Shown: positions 2,344 to 19,888 of the stretch, piece by piece
How positions within the stretch are numbered: position 1 is the first letter of the stretch
How the letters are laid out: each line of letters starts with the position of its first letter
Virus record (IMG/VR): IMGVR_UViG_3300042883_000327
Span: 1-22,755 of that record
Strand: one strand, 5' to 3'
Source of the DNA: a virus
Length of the DNA stretch: 22,755 bases
The notes under the pieces: generated by a model
What the model was told of the DNA's origin: nothing
Seen by the model: the letters and a program-made list of their open reading frames with translations, nothing else
Database searches by the model: none
Translations under genes and position numbers: made by a program

Positions 2344-4365
2344 CTACCTTGAATTCTTGTTTATCATCAGTAAGTTACCCCAAACCATATCATTGACCAC
2401 CCACCCATTATCGTGGTCAACGATGGTTTCACCCAGTCTGAGCGACCCAATTAGCTGATCCTCACTCCCCGGCCTCAATTTTCTCGAAATTAGCGTTTCC
2501 GACACCCCATCGGCCTGCAATTTTTCGACCAAACCAGACCTACTTAGGTACGGTTTTTCGTTCCTAACTTCTGCCCCGGCACTCCACCATGCGTTCTCAA
2601 AAACCTTCATATTGACCGATAATTTCGAGTCCTTTTTGACCTCTTTTGGGGCATCAATTTGATTTACAACTGCCGCCATCGAAGGCTCACCGTCCTCATT
2701 TTCCCACCCCGGAACAGCAAATCTCTCAAGCTCCACCCACACAGAATCGGTCAATTCTGAGTCCTTGCTCTTCCTCTGAATGATCTCGATTGGGCCTCCG
2801 CGCTGCTTGCTTGGGACGACACTGATCTCAATATCTAACGCCCCACGCCACGCTGACGAACCCCGCGCTCTGTGCTGTGTCTCCTCAGATACGCCAGTAT
2901 GATGCACCAGAAGCACCGTACATCTGTACTTAGACATCAGAACAGAGCAGGCATCCAGCATACCTTTGGTATCAACCGAGCTGTTCTCATCCCCAAGCAA
3001 GAACCGATGCAGGGTATCTACCACGATAATAGTAGGCTTCTGATTCAAGCTATTAATGTTATCCACAACACGTTGCAAGCCTTCTTTTGTATTCAGATCG
3101 CAGCCATCACGGGAGATGTGCATCCTGAGACGCGGAACATTATGGTAATGCTTCCACCCAGCAACCCGGGACTTGATCCCCTTGTGACCTTCACCCGCCA
3201 GATAGATGACATTACCACCCGGCTTAATCTTGTGCTGCTCCCCGCACCAGTTGGGCAAGTCTGCCGCCATCCTGAGAATCCAATCCAGAACAACGAACGT
3301 CTTACCGCCGGCTGACGGGCCATGCACCATAATCAAGGCTTCTTCTTGAATCCACTTCTTGACTAACCAAGTAATCGGCTCTGGCTTGGAGCAGAACTCG
3401 TCTGCCTGCACGAGCCAATCGAGTTTTGGGGGCATGAGCAGGATTGACAGGTCGCGCCCTGCCGCCACATAATCATTGGCATCCCCTCTCTCGGGAGGAG
3501 TGACTGTGCGCGTCTTATGAATAGCCGATGCTTGATCGGCATAGGATTGCCCAACGCCGGACTCATCATTATCTGCAACAACTACAATATCCTGCTCCAT
3601 TCCATGCCGACCGCGTAAGATTCCAGCAACCTTGACAAGATTCGATGCAGAATACGCCGCCACGCATGGGCGACCGGTTTGCTCATGTATTGTTGCCGCT
3701 GTAGCAAATCCCTCGGCGATATACAGCGTCCCCGGCTCATCGAATGAGCCTACCATCCAGAACTTTCCGTTGGTGGCCCCGCCGATGTGGTACTTCTTGT
3801 CGCCATCAGAATCTATATACTGCAAGGAACATAAGATGGAATTCTCATCATACAGCGGCAGAACAAGCCTACCATCACCAGTAACCCGCGCCCCATGCGC
3901 GTCAATGTCCTTGCGCTTGAGATACGGATGCTCGGTCGTTGCAAAAGTGCATCCAGACCAGATCGTATCGACCACGTTGGCAGCGACCTCTTGCTTCTTC
4001 TCTGTCTCTGCATCCCGCAGTGATCGGGCCTCCACCAGACGATTGGTGTGCGACATCTCCTCGAATGGGGATAACGTCCTGCCAATGTCGGCCCGGAATG
4101 ACATCTCCACACCCGACCGCCAGTCGCCGAACCGACCTGCCGGTATCCCATCACCAAAGCATACATACCAGCCCGACTTATCGCCGTGACCACTACCACC
4201 CTTTGTTCCTGATGGGAAACGATGCAGGCGACCATCGAGCCTAATATCCGCTGGAGGCTCTAGCCCAGCAGACCTGATGGCGTTAAATAACTGTATCTCT
4301 GGTGGGTCAATTTGCTTTGGACTAGATGGCGACCAATCACCCAGAATTTTAGTTAGATCAGCCAT
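2344..4365 (-). CDS. Toprim primase fused to RepA-like replicative helicase
   Basis: Replication protein of 673 residues that would prime and unwind phage DNA at the fork. The N-terminal part (about 25-100) resembles the front domain of phage primase/RepA proteins. A Toprim domain spans about 210-305, with the metal-binding AEGFATA (Glu218), DNDESG (265-270) and DAND (295-298). The C-terminal AAA/RecA-like ATPase has Walker A GPSAGGKT (349-356), Walker B IIVVD (446-450), sensor LVHHTG (486-491) and RGSSAWRGALD (501-511), as in the RepA/AAA_25 group. No N-terminal zinc ribbon is visible. It overlaps the upstream regulator gene by 13 bases and is presumably co-transcribed from 4568-4600. It is transcribed away from the rest of the replication genes. 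Confidence 0.92.
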   Translation of the reverse strand: MADLTKILGDWSPSSPKQIDPPEIQLFNAIRSAGLEPPADIRLDGRLHRFPSGTKGGSGHGDKSGWYVCFGDGIPAGRFGDWRSGVEMSFRADIGRTLSPFEEMSHTNRLVEARSLRDAETEKKQEVAANVVDTIWSGCTFATTEHPYLKRKDIDAHGARVTGDGRLVLPLYDENSILCSLQYIDSDGDKKYHIGGATNGKFWMVGSFDEPGTLYIAEGFATAATIHEQTGRPCVAAYSASNLVKVAGILRGRHGMEQDIVVVADNDESGVGQSYADQASAIHKTRTVTPPERGDANDYVAAGRDLSILLMPPKLDWLVQADEFCSKPEPITWLVKKWIQEEALIMVHGPSAGGKTFVVLDWILRMAADLPNWCGEQHKIKPGGNVIYLAGEGHKGIKSRVAGWKHYHNVPRLRMHISRDGCDLNTKEGLQRVVDNINSLNQKPTIIVVDTLHRFLLGDENSSVDTKGMLDACSVLMSKYRCTVLLVHHTGVSEETQHRARGSSAWRGALDIEISVVPSKQRGGPIEIIQRKSKDSELTDSVWVELERFAVPGWENEDGEPSMAAVVNQIDAPKEVKKDSKLSVNMKVFENAWWSAGAEVRNEKPYLSRSGLVEKLQADGVSETLISRKLRPGSEDQLIGSLRLGETIVDHDNGWVVNDMVWGNLLMINKNSR

Positions 4366-4532
4366 GAGCGACTCTCAAAGTAGTCGCTAAGTAGCTTGAT
4401 GGTCGCATACGATGGCCTAGAGTCTGGCTTAGAGAATCGGTAAAGAGTGCTGGCGTGTATGCCTGCATCCTGAGCAACGCGCCTTAAATTTGAGTTAGTT
4501 AGTCGGACTTTAATATCTTCTGCGGTTAACAT
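4353..4532 (-). CDS. Small helix-turn-helix regulator (Cro-like)
   Basis: DNA-binding protein of 59 residues. Residues about 16-36 (LRRVAQDAGIHASTLYRF) form a helix-turn-helix, with the second helix from about 28; the C-terminal part is helical. The ATG at 4532 is chosen over an upstream GTG (4541) because GAGGG lies 8 bases before the ATG, whereas the GTG overlaps that site. It sits next to the symmetric dyad at 4568-4600 and is followed, with 13 bases overlap, by the primase-helicase. The natural inference is that it binds this dyad and controls its own operon and the divergent recombination operon. Direct binding is not shown. Confidence 0.82.
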   Translation of the reverse strand: MLTAEDIKVRLTNSNLRRVAQDAGIHASTLYRFSKPDSRPSYATIKLLSDYFESRSWLI

Positions 4533-4567
4533 TGTTAGCACCCTCGTAAATTATTTATCGGTAACGC

Positions 4568-4600
4568 TTGCAATATAATCCATTCTGGAATATTATGCAA
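4568..4600. promoter_or_regulatory. Symmetric overlapping divergent promoter and operator dyad
   Basis: A 33-bp imperfect palindrome: left arm TTGCAATATAATCCA (4568-4582), centre TTC, right arm TGGAATATTATGCAA (4586-4600), 12 of 15 positions paired. Read on the plus strand it gives -35 TTGCAA (4568-4573), 17 bases, -10 TATTAT (4591-4596) toward the Sak4-like gene. Read on the minus strand it gives -35 TTGCAT (4595-4600), 17 bases, -10 TATATT (4572-4577) toward the regulator and primase. The two promoters occupy the same DNA and should exclude each other. The rest of the 4533-4655 gap holds the two leaders and ribosome-binding sites. Confidence 0.68.
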
Positions 4601-4655
4601 ATACACATCGACCGGAATTTTTCCAAAAAGATGTGCTTAAACTTAGGAGATTCAA

Positions 4656-5330
4656 ATGTCAATTCAATTAAAAGGCACGGGAAGTATATCCGCCGCCGGA
4701 GTAAAGATGTTGGTTTATGGTCAAGCCGGTGCAGGCAAGACAACATTAATTAAGACCTTGCCACATCCTGTTATTTTAAGTGCAGAGGGTGGGTTGCTGT
4801 CTTTACAAGATGCAGACCTTCCGTACATTGAAATACGCAACGTGAATGACTTGGAAGAGGCTTATAAATGGGTTGTATCTGATGCTGCCAATGGATTTGA
4901 GTCTGTTGCACTGGATTCTATCAGTGAGATAGCTGAAGTAATCCTGTCATCAGAGAAGAAAAACAATAAAGACCCTCGTGCTGCGTATGGCGCTATGCAG
5001 GACAAGATGAGCGAGATTATCCGGGCATTTAGGGACATTACCAACAAGCACGTCTACTTTACCGCCAAGTGCGAAAAGGCTCAAGATGAAACCGGGAAGA
5101 TTCTGTACTCACCAAGTATGCCCGGCAACAAAACTGGTCAGGCACTCCCCTACTTTTTCGATCTAGTAATGGCACTTAGGGTTGAGAAGGGCGAGGACGG
5201 AATTAGTCAGAGGGCGTTGCTGTGTGATTCCGATGGTTCTTGGCTGGCAAAAGACCGTTCATCAAAACTATCTACATGGGAAGCGCCCGATCTTGGTTCA
5301 ATTATTTCCAAGATTGGTGGCTCAAAATGA
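4656..5330 (+). CDS. Sak4-like RecA-fold ATPase (AAA_24)
   Basis: ATP-binding protein of 224 residues resembling phage nucleotide-binding proteins of the AAA_24/Sak4 type, which assist single-strand annealing and recombination. Walker A is GQAGAGKTT (22-30), and Walker B is VALDS with Asp87. The region about 110-150 with YGAMQDKMSEIIRAFRDI and the following TAKCEK strand fits the family. Its neighbours, a DUF669 protein, a Cas4-like exonuclease and a helicase, form a typical phage recombination/replication set. A clear ribosome-binding site (AGGAGA) precedes the ATG, and the gene is the first one downstream of the rightward promoter at 4568-4600. Confidence 0.88.
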   Translation: MSIQLKGTGSISAAGVKMLVYGQAGAGKTTLIKTLPHPVILSAEGGLLSLQDADLPYIEIRNVNDLEEAYKWVVSDAANGFESVALDSISEIAEVILSSEKKNNKDPRAAYGAMQDKMSEIIRAFRDITNKHVYFTAKCEKAQDETGKILYSPSMPGNKTGQALPYFFDLVMALRVEKGEDGISQRALLCDSDGSWLAKDRSSKLSTWEAPDLGSIISKIGGSK

Positions 5331-5716
5331 GTGCTGACATCGAGTATCTAGTCCGTTTGTGGGAGTCTAGCAAATTGGCAGAAGCCGATGCTATGCAAAA
5401 GCGTAGGCGTTTCGAGGATTTAATTGTAGAAGCCCTTGAGATTCCAGAGTCTCTCGATGGGACTGAGAATTTCGATGTCGGGAACTACAAGCTCAAGATC
5501 GTGGGTCGTCTTAATCGTAAGGTGAATTCCGAGAAGTTAGTCGAGTTAGCGGAAGAGAATGGCCTTACCGACCATCTTCAAAGCCTTTTTAGATGGAAGC
5601 CTGAGATTAATGTAACTGCATGGAAGTCAGCAAGTGAAGAAATCACTCGTCCACTTTTGGGCGCAGTGACAACCGAGCCGGGTCGCCCCAGCTTTTCAAT
5701 TCAAATTAAGGAGTAA
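5327..5716 (+). CDS. Phage protein of the replication module, 129 aa
   Basis: Soluble, charged protein of 129 residues. The start at 5327 is preferred over an upstream in-frame ATG at 5240 because it forms an ATGA overlap with the Sak4-like gene and avoids an 87-base overlap. The N-terminal 35 residues look like a helical or coiled-coil segment; the middle includes GNYKLKIVGRLNRKVNSEKL. Proteins of this size and composition commonly lie between Sak4-like and DUF669 genes in phages (DUF7173 is a tentative match from memory). It probably works with the neighbouring single-strand DNA proteins; this is inferred from position. Confidence 0.82.
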   Translation: MSADIEYLVRLWESSKLAEADAMQKRRRFEDLIVEALEIPESLDGTENFDVGNYKLKIVGRLNRKVNSEKLVELAEENGLTDHLQSLFRWKPEINVTAWKSASEEITRPLLGAVTTEPGRPSFSIQIKE

Positions 5717-5721
5717 TAAAA

Positions 5722-6192
5722 ATGGCCTCATTAGGTGAAACTTTTGATCTAAGCAAGATGTCGCAGCCCTCTAACTCTTTTGATCCACTTCCAGTGGGTT
5801 GGTACGATGCAACAATAACCGGTTCCGAGGTAAAGGCTACCAAGTCTGGAACTGGTCAATACATTGCTGTTCGTTTTGACATTACTGGCCCGACCCATCA
5901 GGGCCGCGTTGTGTTCACAAATGTCAATATTCGCAATGCAAATCCAACTGCTGAAAAGATAGGACGTGAGCAATTCGCCTCTATTATGCTTGCCGGGGGC
6001 ATTAGTTCGGCAACTGACTCAGATCAATTGATAGGTGCAAGTATGAAAATTGATCTAGGGATAGAGCGCAGCGAAGAGTATGGAGATAAGAATAAGATTA
6101 AATCTTACAAGGCGCTAGGTGGCGCAATGCCTTCAGCATTAAAGACTTCTGCGCCGAAATCAGCCAATGGCCCAAGTTGGGCAACTAAGTAA
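5722..6192 (+). CDS. DUF669 family, probable ssDNA-binding protein
   Basis: Protein of 156 residues matching the DUF669 pattern: GWYDATITGSEVKATKSGTG (26-45), then YIAVRFDITGPTHQGRVVF, NVNIRNANPTAEKIGREQF and GASMKIDLGIER. DUF669 proteins are beta-rich and are generally taken as phage single-strand DNA-binding or recombination accessory proteins. The final 25 residues are low-complexity and Pro/Ser/Lys-rich, like the flexible tail of SSB proteins. Located five bases after the previous stop, with AAGGAGTAATAAAA upstream giving a good ribosome-binding site. Confidence 0.87.
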   Translation: MASLGETFDLSKMSQPSNSFDPLPVGWYDATITGSEVKATKSGTGQYIAVRFDITGPTHQGRVVFTNVNIRNANPTAEKIGREQFASIMLAGGISSATDSDQLIGASMKIDLGIERSEEYGDKNKIKSYKALGGAMPSALKTSAPKSANGPSWATK

Positions 6193-6230
6193 TAGGAGTC
6201 CCCTCCCGAAAAGGGGGGGGTAATTATATG
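6193..6230 (+). promoter_or_regulatory. Hairpin between a distant Shine-Dalgarno and the start codon
   Basis: TAGGAG (6193-6198) follows the DUF669 stop directly but is about 30 bases from the ATG at 6228. Between them CCCCTCCC (6200-6207), loop GAAAA, and eight G (6213-6220) can pair, with one U:G. Folding this stem would leave only about eight unpaired bases between AGGAG and the ATG, the normal spacing. A similar bridging hairpin is known for phage T4 gene 38. Alternatively the G-run itself pairs weakly with 16S rRNA and the hairpin hides it. Confidence 0.55.
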
Positions 6231-7259
6231 AAAATTCCAGAACCGATTAATTCATTATCTGCATTGATAGACCGCGCCCATGAGGATCGGCAAGAGCCGC
6301 CACGCCCACATATGGGTGCGTCAACGCTAGGACATCCGTGTGATAGATGGCTGTGGCTATCATTTCGGTGGGCGGTAGTAGAGAAGTTTAATGGCAGATT
6401 ATTGCGCCTTTTCCGGCGAGGGCAGAATGAGGAGGCTCAAATCGTTAGCGACCTCCGGTCTATTGGTATCAATATAGTGTCAACTGGTGGCTCTCAGAGC
6501 CGCGTAGACTTTGGCTCTCATGTATCTGGTAGCCTAGACGGAGTGATTACACATGGAGTGCCTGAAGCCCCAGCAAAGAAGCATATAGCCGAGTTCAAGA
6601 CCCACTCCAAGAAGTCCTTTGATGACTTGGTAAAGTCTGGTGTCGAGGCCAGTAAACCCATGCACTATATCCAGATGCAGGTCTACATGATGGGCAAGAA
6701 GATTGACCGGGCGCTGTACGTTGGGGTCTGCAAGGACGATGACCGCATCTATACAGAACGTATTAGATATGTAAAGGAAGTGGCGGAAAAGTATATAGCT
6801 CGTGGGAAAAGAATTACGATGCTGGATCGTATGCCAGAGCCATGTTCTGGAGCTGCACCAGACTGGTATCAATGCAAGTGGTGTCCAGCTCATTCATTCT
6901 GCCACGACACCAAGCTCACCAAAGAGGTGAACTGCCGTACCTGCGCCCACTCTACGGCTACGCCAGACTCTAAATGGACGTGCGCCAGATACGACAATCT
7001 TGAGCTGGCGGTAGAGAATCAACGCACTGGCTGCAATGCTCATGTATTGCACCCAGATTTAGTCCCTTGGAAGAGGGGCGACAGCGAGAGCCTGCATGAG
7101 GCGGTATATATCATTGACGGAAAGCCCGTGAAGAATGGTGCTGCTGATTGCAACTGCTTCTCAAGCAAAGAGATGGTGGCAAACCCAAACGCCTGCGCCA
7201 ATCCCACCAAGGACATTATTGATACGCGAATGATATTTGACGCGAGGATTGTAGGATGA
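6228..7259 (+). CDS. Cas4-like PD-(D/E)XK exonuclease with Fe-S cluster
   Basis: Predicted DNA exonuclease of 343 residues in the RecB/Cas4 nuclease group. Core residues are Asp104 (GSLDG), Glu122-Phe-Lys124 (EFKTH) and the QxxxY motif Gln149-Tyr153. Four cysteines, Cys38 (GHPCDRW), Cys216, Cys219 and Cys225 (CKWCPAHSFC), have the Cas4/AddB spacing for a [4Fe-4S] cluster that staples the domain ends. A C-terminal extension carries four more cysteines (236, 239, 252, 269), probably a zinc-binding module not present in minimal Cas4. It probably resects DNA ends for recombination with the Sak4-like and DUF669 proteins. It overlaps the helicase gene by ATGA. No cas1/cas2 are present, so a CRISPR role is not suggested. 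Confidence 0.88.
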   Translation: MKIPEPINSLSALIDRAHEDRQEPPRPHMGASTLGHPCDRWLWLSFRWAVVEKFNGRLLRLFRRGQNEEAQIVSDLRSIGINIVSTGGSQSRVDFGSHVSGSLDGVITHGVPEAPAKKHIAEFKTHSKKSFDDLVKSGVEASKPMHYIQMQVYMMGKKIDRALYVGVCKDDDRIYTERIRYVKEVAEKYIARGKRITMLDRMPEPCSGAAPDWYQCKWCPAHSFCHDTKLTKEVNCRTCAHSTATPDSKWTCARYDNLELAVENQRTGCNAHVLHPDLVPWKRGDSESLHEAVYIIDGKPVKNGAADCNCFSSKEMVANPNACANPTKDIIDTRMIFDARIVG

Positions 7260-8875
7260 GTGAGGTAACTCTACGGGACTACCAGCAGCGAGTTCTGGAC
7301 GATCTGGACAACTGGTTTAGGACTAGCAAGCTCAAGCACCCATGCCTAGTCCTGCCCACCGGCTCGGGCAAGAGCCACATCATCGCCGCTTTCTGCAAGG
7401 CTGCAATACAGAGCTGGCCCGATACTAAAATCCTGATGCTGACGCACGTCAAGGAGCTTATCGAGCAGAATGCCGCCAGAATGCTTGAGCATTGGCCTGA
7501 TGCCCCGATGGGGATATATTCATCAGGCATGGGATTGCGGCAGCTTGGACAGCCTATTACTTTTGCTGGTATCCAATCGGTTAGAAAGCGCGGGCGTGAG
7601 ATTGGTCATATAGACCTTATCATTATTGATGAGTGCCACCTAGTTGGTCATGGCGCTGAGGGCGGGTATCGGACGCTGATAGATGTTCTGACCTCAATCA
7701 ATCCAAATCTGAGGGTCGTAGGATTGACCGCTACCCCCTACCGTCTAGGGCATGGTGTCATCACCGACAAGCCCGCCATATTCGATGAGCTACTCCAATC
7801 TATTGACATCCCGGAGCTAGTCCATAAAGAGTTCTTGGCAAAATTAAGGTCTAAAAAGACAGAGGCAGAACTTGATACGTCCTCAGTCCACAAGCGCGGT
7901 GGGGAATTTATTGAGAGTGAGCTACAGGCTGCGGTTGATACGGCAGATCAAAATCAGCGTGTTGTGGATGAGGTTATACGATTAGCTGGGGATAGAAGGT
8001 CTTGGTTATTCTTTTGCTCTGGCATAAAGCACTCAGAGAATGTTGCCGCAGAATTGAACCGGCGCGGGATCGTGACAGAGATGGTCACTGGAGATACGCC
8101 AAAACGGGAGCGCACCAGAATTTTGACAGAGTTTCGTAGTGGGGTAATAAAAGCCGTTACGAACGCCAATGTACTCACCACTGGATTTGACCACCCGGAT
8201 CTGGATTTGATAGTCCTGCTGCGCCCAACCATGAGCGTGGGCCTTTATATCCAGATGGCTGGGCGAGGAATGCGACCCAAGCTCCATACAGATCATTGCT
8301 TAGTGCTGGATTTTGCAGGCAATATTCACCGGCATGGCCCTATTACCAATGTCGAGCCGCCTAAAAAGGGTGGGGATGGTGATGGGGAAGCACCAGTAAA
8401 GGTTTGTGATAACTGCCAAGAGATTGTGCATATATCAGTAATGGTATGCCCTGCCTGCGGCACACCGTTCCCGGTAAAGGCTAGGCCAAAGTTGAAGCTC
8501 GGTAATGATGACATTATGGGCATAGACGGTATTGATATGGGGGTCGAGTCGTGGAAGTGGAGTCCTCATGTCAGCCAGCAATCTGGGAAGCATATGCTAC
8601 TTGTAAGATATTACGGGCATAAGCTATCGGATAAGGTTGTGAGCGAATACTTTTGCATTAAACATGAGGGATTTGCCGGTACTAAAGCTGTGGCGACATT
8701 GTTTATGATGGCGCAGCGATCTAGGCAATGCAAGGTTATGTCTGCCGCAGAGTTTAATATTTTGAATGATATGGGAAGGAACTCTATATTTTTGAACACA
8801 TTAAAAGCCCCTAAAAACATAAAGTACAAGTTGGATGGAAAGTTTTTTAGGGTTACACAAAGGAGCTGGGAATGA
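7256..8875 (+). CDS. Superfamily 2 DNA/RNA helicase (DECH box)
   Basis: Helicase of 539 residues. Q-motif-like RDYQQ at 7-11, motif I LPTGSGKSH (33-41), motif II DECH (125-128), motif III LTATPYR near 158-164, and motif VI QMAGRGMR near 330-337. A zinc ribbon CDNC...CPAC lies near 383-399, and about 130 further residues form a C-terminal domain that ends FRVTQRSWE. The pattern resembles the phage DEAD/RecQ-UvsW-like helicases that branch-migrate or unwind recombination intermediates. The ATGA overlaps on both sides couple it to the Cas4-like nuclease and the VRR-NUC nuclease, implying a helicase-nuclease team. Confidence 0.92.
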   Translation: MSEVTLRDYQQRVLDDLDNWFRTSKLKHPCLVLPTGSGKSHIIAAFCKAAIQSWPDTKILMLTHVKELIEQNAARMLEHWPDAPMGIYSSGMGLRQLGQPITFAGIQSVRKRGREIGHIDLIIIDECHLVGHGAEGGYRTLIDVLTSINPNLRVVGLTATPYRLGHGVITDKPAIFDELLQSIDIPELVHKEFLAKLRSKKTEAELDTSSVHKRGGEFIESELQAAVDTADQNQRVVDEVIRLAGDRRSWLFFCSGIKHSENVAAELNRRGIVTEMVTGDTPKRERTRILTEFRSGVIKAVTNANVLTTGFDHPDLDLIVLLRPTMSVGLYIQMAGRGMRPKLHTDHCLVLDFAGNIHRHGPITNVEPPKKGGDGDGEAPVKVCDNCQEIVHISVMVCPACGTPFPVKARPKLKLGNDDIMGIDGIDMGVESWKWSPHVSQQSGKHMLLVRYYGHKLSDKVVSEYFCIKHEGFAGTKAVATLFMMAQRSRQCKVMSAAEFNILNDMGRNSIFLNTLKAPKNIKYKLDGKFFRVTQRSWE

Positions 8876-9198
8876 AGACAGAGCATGAGGAACAGAGGGA
8901 GTTGGTGCAGTGGTTTAGGAGAAGTTTCCCGATTAGGATATTCGCCATACCGAATGGTGGGTTGAGGTCTAAAGTTAGTGCCATGAAGTTAAAGGTTGAG
9001 GGGGTAACTGCTGGAGTTCCCGATCTATTTGTCCCAGAGTGGAGCTTATGGATCGAGATGAAGCGAGAGAAGGGTGGAGTAATCAGTGAGCCTCAACAGG
9101 ACTGGATTGAGTACCTAGAGAGAATTGGGCATACTGTTATTATTGGTCGTGGTAAGGAGGATGCTATATATAAGATTCAAAAATTCATCTCCAGATGA
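8872..9198 (+). CDS. VRR-NUC domain nuclease
   Basis: Stand-alone VRR-NUC nuclease of 108 residues. Hallmarks: Glu4 with EEQ near the N-terminus, AIPNGGLRS (25-33), AGVPDLFVP with Asp51, IEMKRE with Glu62 and Lys64, and Gln76 in EPQQDWIEYL. Phage VRR-NUC proteins act as homodimeric structure-specific endonucleases, for example on Holliday junctions. Its position after a Cas4-like exonuclease and an SF2 helicase fits resolution of recombination intermediates. The start overlaps the helicase stop by ATGA. Confidence 0.93.
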   Translation: MKTEHEEQRELVQWFRRSFPIRIFAIPNGGLRSKVSAMKLKVEGVTAGVPDLFVPEWSLWIEMKREKGGVISEPQQDWIEYLERIGHTVIIGRGKEDAIYKIQKFISR

Positions 9199-19471: not shown

Positions 19472-19888
19472 CTATCTCCTAAACGCACTCATAAACTTAC
19501 CGCCTAATTGAGACGCTCCCCTACCGAATGCAGAAGCACTCTCCTGCAATTGATTGCCTAATCTTTTAGTAGCACCAAACATTCCACGCTGCGCTTCAAG
19601 TGGTGCGCTTGGATTCCATCCCATCTCAGAGCCACCACCCGGAGCATTGTAGCTTTTCATAATTTGCCCAGCCCGTTGCTGCTGTGGAGTTTGTGGTTCA
19701 CGCATGAGCATACCGTTTCTTACTTGCTGATCGAATGCGTTAGAAAATGATCCGCCTTCTTGATCCGCGCCATATCGTCTAAGCCTATCTGCTAGAGATT
19801 GACGTTTCTGCTGTTGAGTTCCAACAGCCTGAGGTTGTTGCATCTCACCCGGTTGCTGCATCTGGAAATTTACGATTCTGTTTGCCAT
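19472..19888 (-). CDS. Gln/Gly-rich small virion protein, 138 aa
   Basis: Low-complexity, basic protein: MANRIVNFQMQQPGEMQQPQ at the start, Gln-rich through residue 30, and GASQLGGKFMSAFRR at the end, with an amphipathic helix near the C-terminus. GAGGTAGTT precedes the ATG. It sits with the internal proteins and could be a small ejection or scaffold-like protein. No family recognised. Confidence 0.75.
   Translation of the reverse strand: MANRIVNFQMQQPGEMQQPQAVGTQQQKRQSLADRLRRYGADQEGGSFSNAFDQQVRNGMLMREPQTPQQQRAGQIMKSYNAPGGGSEMGWNPSAPLEAQRGMFGATKRLGNQLQESASAFGRGASQLGGKFMSAFRR

Follow-up and report, generated by a model that had tools for sequence, protein, structure and literature searches.

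Does the short intergenic region from which two sets of phage genes diverge carry a genuine pair of opposed promoters on one symmetric site, or does it merely look like one? The window examined here, a virus record of 22,755 bases taken at its whole length, holds at 4568-4600 a dyad made of TTGCAATATAATCCA, the central TTC and TGGAATATTATGCAA, with 12 of 15 arm pairs complementary. The first-pass annotation described it as two fully overlapping, opposed promoters, and the sequence agrees with the dyad, its coordinates, its pairing, the boxes and the 17-bp spacing on both strands (Table 1). Each -35 box overlaps the -10 box of the opposite strand by two bases.

The symmetric site and the genes beside it

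Within the window, two other sites (near 2294-2325 and 19815-19847) equalled the 12/15 palindrome score in a scan of the whole sequence; taken alone at that scale, the palindrome is a weak signal and unremarkable. In 1000 mononucleotide shuffles of the 123-bp intergenic region, however, 12/15 was reached just 9 times. The promoter-like sites there were near expectation (6 observed vs 4.8 ± 2.1 in shuffles). Only the comparison with relatives could be decisive.

Table 1. Features of the control region and its flanking genes in the window
Feature	Position	Strand	Basis
Mirror-symmetric 33-bp site carrying both predicted promoters	4568-4600		Sequence; comparison of the 32 sequences of the window clade
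Rightward -35 box TTGCAA	4568-4573	+	Promoter scan; position kept in relatives
Rightward -10 box TATTAT, 17-bp spacer; predicted start ~4603	4591-4596	+	Promoter scan
Leftward -35 box TTGCAT	4595-4600	-	Promoter scan; TTG here in 71/86 divergent relatives and 0/15 co-directional (sites not independent)
Leftward -10 box TATATT, 17-bp spacer; predicted start ~4565	4572-4577	-	Promoter scan
Predicted 5'-terminal leader hairpin of the rightward mRNA	4603-4635	+	Fold, covariation, covariance model
Hairpin stems, outer and inner	4604-4609/4630-4635; 4614-4617/4621-4624	+	
59-residue HTH transcriptional regulator (PHROG 18104; weak HTH_26)	4353-4532	-	Profile matches
Likely ribosome-binding site of the HTH gene	4541-4545	-	Sequence
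TOPRIM/AAA_25 primase-helicase, overlapping the end of the HTH gene	2344-4365	-	Profile matches
Sak4-like single-strand annealing ATPase (AAA_24; PHROG 124), first gene of the rightward operon	4656-5330	+	
Likely ribosome-binding site of the Sak4-like gene	4645-4649	+	Sequence
Remaining rightward operon: DUF7173, DUF669 (SSB-like), Cas4-domain exonuclease, ResIII-type helicase, VRR-NUC nuclease	5327-9198	+	

Both the left and the right operon act in the replication and processing of phage DNA. The AlphaFold model of the 59-residue protein (single-sequence input) had four helices with a mean pLDDT of 83.5, and the profile of its family gave weak matches to XRE/Cro-type and LacI headpiece structures. 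Judged by the position of its gene, the HTH protein is likely an autoregulator acting through a putative feedback on this region.

Two further elements were seen in the window. The near-palindrome at 2294-2325, TGTACCAAAACGTACCGGTACGCCTCGGTACA, stands directly 3' of the primase stop codon and could be a terminator or an operator. A perfect TATAAT at 4574-4579 on the plus strand, within the rightward spacer, overlaps the leftward -10 box; with a weak upstream -35, it could form a second rightward promoter or one of the shared -10 type.

Promoter geometry in related phages

To gather relatives, we searched viral contigs with five protein queries, the primase and four Sak4 sequences, and added named phages; at the DNA level, a megablast of the window against phage records returned only an unrelated 256-bp match. 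We collected 333 Sak4-bearing loci, in 256 of which a small HTH gene lay divergent and upstream. The regulator belonged to the window's type in 199 of these and to a second type in 57, a tested member of which matched Pfam P22_Cro (E = 7e-17). Fewer than 250 bp separated the HTH and Sak4 genes in 173 loci, which gave 66 non-redundant intergenic regions. We chose the best sigma70-like promoter on each strand independently and defined the span as the distance from the outer edge of one -35 box to that of the other; the matrices were E. coli-like approximations that may not fit the sigma factor of the host.

Of the 66 regions, 46 had a span of 33-36 bp, including 37 with exactly 34 bp, as against 5.1% and 1.6%, respectively, of 3763 real-sequence windows from the same loci; these regions are mutually related, and 34 of them fall in one Sak4 cluster. 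For spans of 31-37 bp, the values were 69.7% of regions vs 6.9% of dinucleotide shuffles, and the mirrored geometry was present in 10 of 17 Sak4 protein clusters. Leftward scores anchored solely on the rightward promoter also peaked at a span of 34 (z = 5.2). Taken one by one, the leftward -35 signal was raised at offset 34 and the -10 signal at offset 11, which amounts to a 17-bp spacer. The leftward -10 signal, at the offset matching the box at 4572-4577, was seen in class A, in class B and in the groups that have no HTH regulator. Columns 9-10 of the rightward spacer, which hold the initial TA of the leftward -10, were 79% conserved at each base, yet the rightward promoter needs nothing there. 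Thus the overlapping, opposed arrangement recurs in relatives far above chance.

The first-pass annotation had made its case depend on the palindrome being kept at the same site in relatives; a mirror-symmetric site with both promoters does recur there, and the proposal withstands that check. All 32 sequences of the window clade retained both -35/-10 pairs, whereas arm pairing ranged from 9 to 12 of 15. As the hexamer pairs were kept while the dyad pairing varied, the conserved unit is the promoter geometry and not a long palindrome; the latter was rejected as such a unit on this decay of the inner arms, and because matching beyond the hexamer was at shuffle level.

The rightward promoter was usually nearer to consensus than the leftward one. 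Two clades count against a promoter pair. A TTGCAA clade (L033-L058) had a poor leftward -10 (CATTTT, CAGATT). In another clade (L060, L285, L286 and L330) we found, instead of the mirrored promoter of 33-35 bp, a TTTACA-15-TGTAAA dyad with a 27-bp span and neither a good promoter nor good -10 boxes, which is possibly a different operator. The HTH-less loci L021, L022, L028, L030, L047, L230 and their relatives kept divergent promoters with an extended -10 (TGnTA), and their leftward gene was a primase or a PAPS-reductase-like gene.

A natural control came from promoters of the same type that lie between co-directional genes. These were located through the leader hairpin described below, which marks the promoter type independently of the arms. 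Their rightward median score was 11.0, vs 10.1 at divergent sites, while the leftward score was -2.2 vs 8.3. The mirrored TTG arm was found at none of the 15 co-directional sites and at 71 of the 86 divergent ones (Fisher p = 5e-10, with sites that are not independent, the 15 stemming from about six or seven families). Three loci (L120, L124 and L128) hold both kinds of promoter. Since the arm is absent from equally strong co-directional promoters, the mirror is not inherent to the rightward promoter. Judged from these sequences, the mirrored arm occurs where leftward transcription is needed.

Second copies of the promoter and leader hairpin that had no mirrored arm were seen in L118, L120, L124, L128, L140, L153, L037, L196, L228, L048, L025 and L169, and they precede another small gene pointing the same way.

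The predicted leader of the rightward transcript

Directly 3' of the predicted rightward start, the segment ACACAUCGACCGGAAUUUUUCCAAAAAGAUGUGC folded at -9.7 kcal/mol (z = -3.8). When 39 relatives were compared, an outer stem of six pairs and an inner stem of three formed in 88% of cells, and changes on both sides of a pair numbered 99, vs 31.8 ± 4.6 in shuffles; the signal was lost when the partner was slid by one to three columns. Covariance model R1 matched the window at 4598-4652 and found matches in nearly all loci searched, every locus match being on the rightward strand. Among 33 records searched, 29 had one copy, 3 had two or three and 1 had none. The counts of GU (13) and AC (11) cells in the hairpin are insufficient alone to fix the strand, which we assigned as rightward from the position after the predicted start and the folding.

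The hairpin opens the Sak4 operon in most of these phages, and its inner motif GA-x-CGGA..CCGA is conserved. On the other hand, the hairpin was absent from phages of Pseudomonas, Moraxella, Variovorax, Sulfitobacter and Escherichia whose Sak4 is about 48-53% identical. Rfam gave no curated family at gathering score for the leader of the window and 12 relatives. With clear covariation and no Rfam family, the hairpin is a separate RNA element in most of these phages. In L046, an int-alpA RNA (RF02996) scored above the gathering threshold at 2844-2913 on the minus strand, some 0.6 kb away from the control region.

A role for the hairpin in translational control of Sak4 alone was weakened by two findings: where other genes have been inserted ahead of Sak4, the hairpin remains with the promoter and the HTH gene, and its second copies stand before genes other than Sak4. 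A genome-wide nut- or put-like site on both early operons was unsupported, given mostly one copy per record and locus matches that are all rightward. The hairpin travels with the promoter and the HTH gene and not with Sak4, which suggests a role at the level of the transcript, probably in stability, antitermination or protein binding; we take this as a lead and not as a conclusion. A larger proposal, which we consider possible but rather doubtful, is that the locus represents an undescribed compact early-control cassette, in which a mirror promoter would select the orientation of RNA polymerase and, coupled to it, a structured 5'-terminal leader would be carried by the rightward transcript only. 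That leader would then be a new class of cis-acting phage RNA (e.g. antitermination, stabilising or protein-binding) and would tip the shared site in favour of the recombination operon once transcription has begun.

Function of the site and its place among divergent promoters

We consider it likely that the site is a true reciprocal pair of divergent sigma70-type promoters, fully overlapping and sterically exclusive, which serves as a shared early control site of this phage group; the reading is drawn from sequence comparison. The pair would initiate two early DNA-metabolism operons, the leftward one with the small HTH regulator and the primase-helicase, and the rightward one with the Sak4, SSB, Cas4 and helicase genes. 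RNA polymerase would sit in one orientation at a time, which would give both operons a single loading site, and expression would be split between them by relative promoter strength, so that the rightward operon could dominate. That only one polymerase could bind, as claimed in the first-pass annotation, would follow from the geometry of the overlapping boxes, and the starts at ~4603 and ~4565 are likewise predicted ones.

One alternative, which we find unlikely, is that the dyad serves chiefly as an operator for the small HTH protein, which would bind the two TTG(A/C) arms as a dimer, block both promoters and regulate its own gene; the resemblance of the left strand to a promoter would be a by-product of operator symmetry. 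The arms do co-vary at hexamer positions 3 and 4 (G/T, A/C) above shuffles (z 6.9 and 4.2, uncorrected for kinship), some clades have perfect arms of 8-9 bp (GTGTTGACA/TGTCAACAC in L048 and L120, GTGTTGAC/GTCAACAC in L097), and the arm is absent from co-directional promoters that do not adjoin the regulator. However, the arms and their span recur beside two unrelated regulator families, the PHROG 18104 type and the P22_Cro type, and relatives that have no regulator retain the leftward -10 and, for the most part, the TTG arm, which weakens an operator specific to the HTH protein. Half-sites about 30 bp apart are also wide for a small Cro-like dimer. The suggestion that the promoter has a built-in operator for the 59-residue protein is not supported: the arms match each other outside the -35 consensus only at the two hexamer positions and elsewhere no more than expected, the inner palindrome decays in close relatives, and the geometry is also found beside the P22-Cro-type regulator and in many relatives that have no regulator gene. 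Given the two regulator families and the regulator-less relatives that keep the arm and the leftward -10, we take the arms to be -35 boxes in the first place, with binding of an HTH protein possible.

We regard as improbable a true switch, in which the HTH protein or rightward firing silences the left operon and thereby separates a primase-helicase phase from a recombination phase. The geometry would let RNA polymerase act as its own repressor, a comparable pair belongs to a switch in pLS20 (PMC4207663), and in E. coli one direction is repressed when the other is strongly activated (PMC12825309). E. coli bidirectional promoters compete only if one direction is strong, however, and none of the five tested competed at basal activity (PMC12825309). 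Phage DNA replication requires the genes on either side, and the promoters are kept in regulator-less relatives. A choice of replication versus recombination, as had been proposed, thus finds no footing, because the primase-helicase and the Sak4/DUF669/Cas4-like/helicase operons both belong to replication and processing and nothing shows alternation between them. We find it more likely than such a decision that expression of the two operons is coupled, with a ratio set between them, and that the HTH protein regulates its own gene.

That AT-rich intergenic DNA merely resembles promoters on both strands by chance, as the near-expected promoter count in the window and the two other places with an equal palindrome score might suggest, is very improbable against a geometry that recurs in 46 of 66 regions, where about 5% would be expected, and is absent at co-directional sisters.

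Among known arrangements, lambda PR and PRM stand back to back and overlap only partly, with three defined operators in the cro/cI control region. Like the reciprocal pair proposed here, they are early phage promoters that point away from each other next to a small regulator gene of the Cro/CI type. In the window, on the other hand, the two promoters lie on the same stretch of DNA. No separate operator was recognised; only the promoter arms are symmetric, and no other operator-like repeat was seen in this intergenic region.

Bacteria commonly have bidirectional promoters (PMC12825309, PMC10268837). In the shared -10 promoters described by Warman, Grainger and colleagues, the starts are usually 18 bp apart, within a defined range of 7-25 bp (PMC10268837). 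There too, pseudo-symmetric DNA loads RNA polymerase either way, one at a time, and gives divergent RNAs (PMC10268837, PMC12825309). The phage site differs from this definition, which includes reciprocally overlapping -10 elements, since its -10 boxes are separate, 13 bp apart and each set against the opposite -35, and its predicted starts (4603 and 4565) are 38 bp apart.

The closest likeness is with the Pr and Pc promoters of the Bacillus subtilis plasmid pLS20, in which the -35 and -10 boxes were inferred to coincide with the -10 and -35 boxes of the other promoter (PMC4207663). By window coordinates, and by the 33-36 bp span in 46 of 66 relatives, each -35 of the phage site likewise lies on or against the -10 of the other promoter. 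In both, an HTH-type regulator gene stands on one side and a long functional operon on the other, with promoters of unequal strength (PMC4207663); the HTH gene is the first leftward gene in most phage loci, and some relatives have none. In contrast to the phage site, pLS20 has mapped starts, a weak promoter that depends on Rco for activation and DNA looping mediated by the regulator (PMC4207663). In the phage, both promoters are consensus-like, the symmetry is strong, the genes are those of replication and recombination and the starts are predicted from sequence; looping sites were not identified there. The description of the design as unusual finds no support, since the exchange of -35 and -10 was already inferred for pLS20 and bidirectional promoters are common (PMC4207663, PMC12825309, PMC10268837). 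The papers on related phages that we consulted gave neither a description of the mirrored site nor expression data for these phages. The site appears to represent an arrangement already known from one plasmid at least, and not a brand-new switch.

Bidirectional promoters are mostly regarded as by-products of the symmetric -10 element. Here, the reciprocal geometry persists across many phages while most of the neighbouring sequence changes, and it is missing from sister promoters of this type for which one direction suffices, which offers a natural system for asking whether evolution purposely maintains a choice of polymerase orientation.
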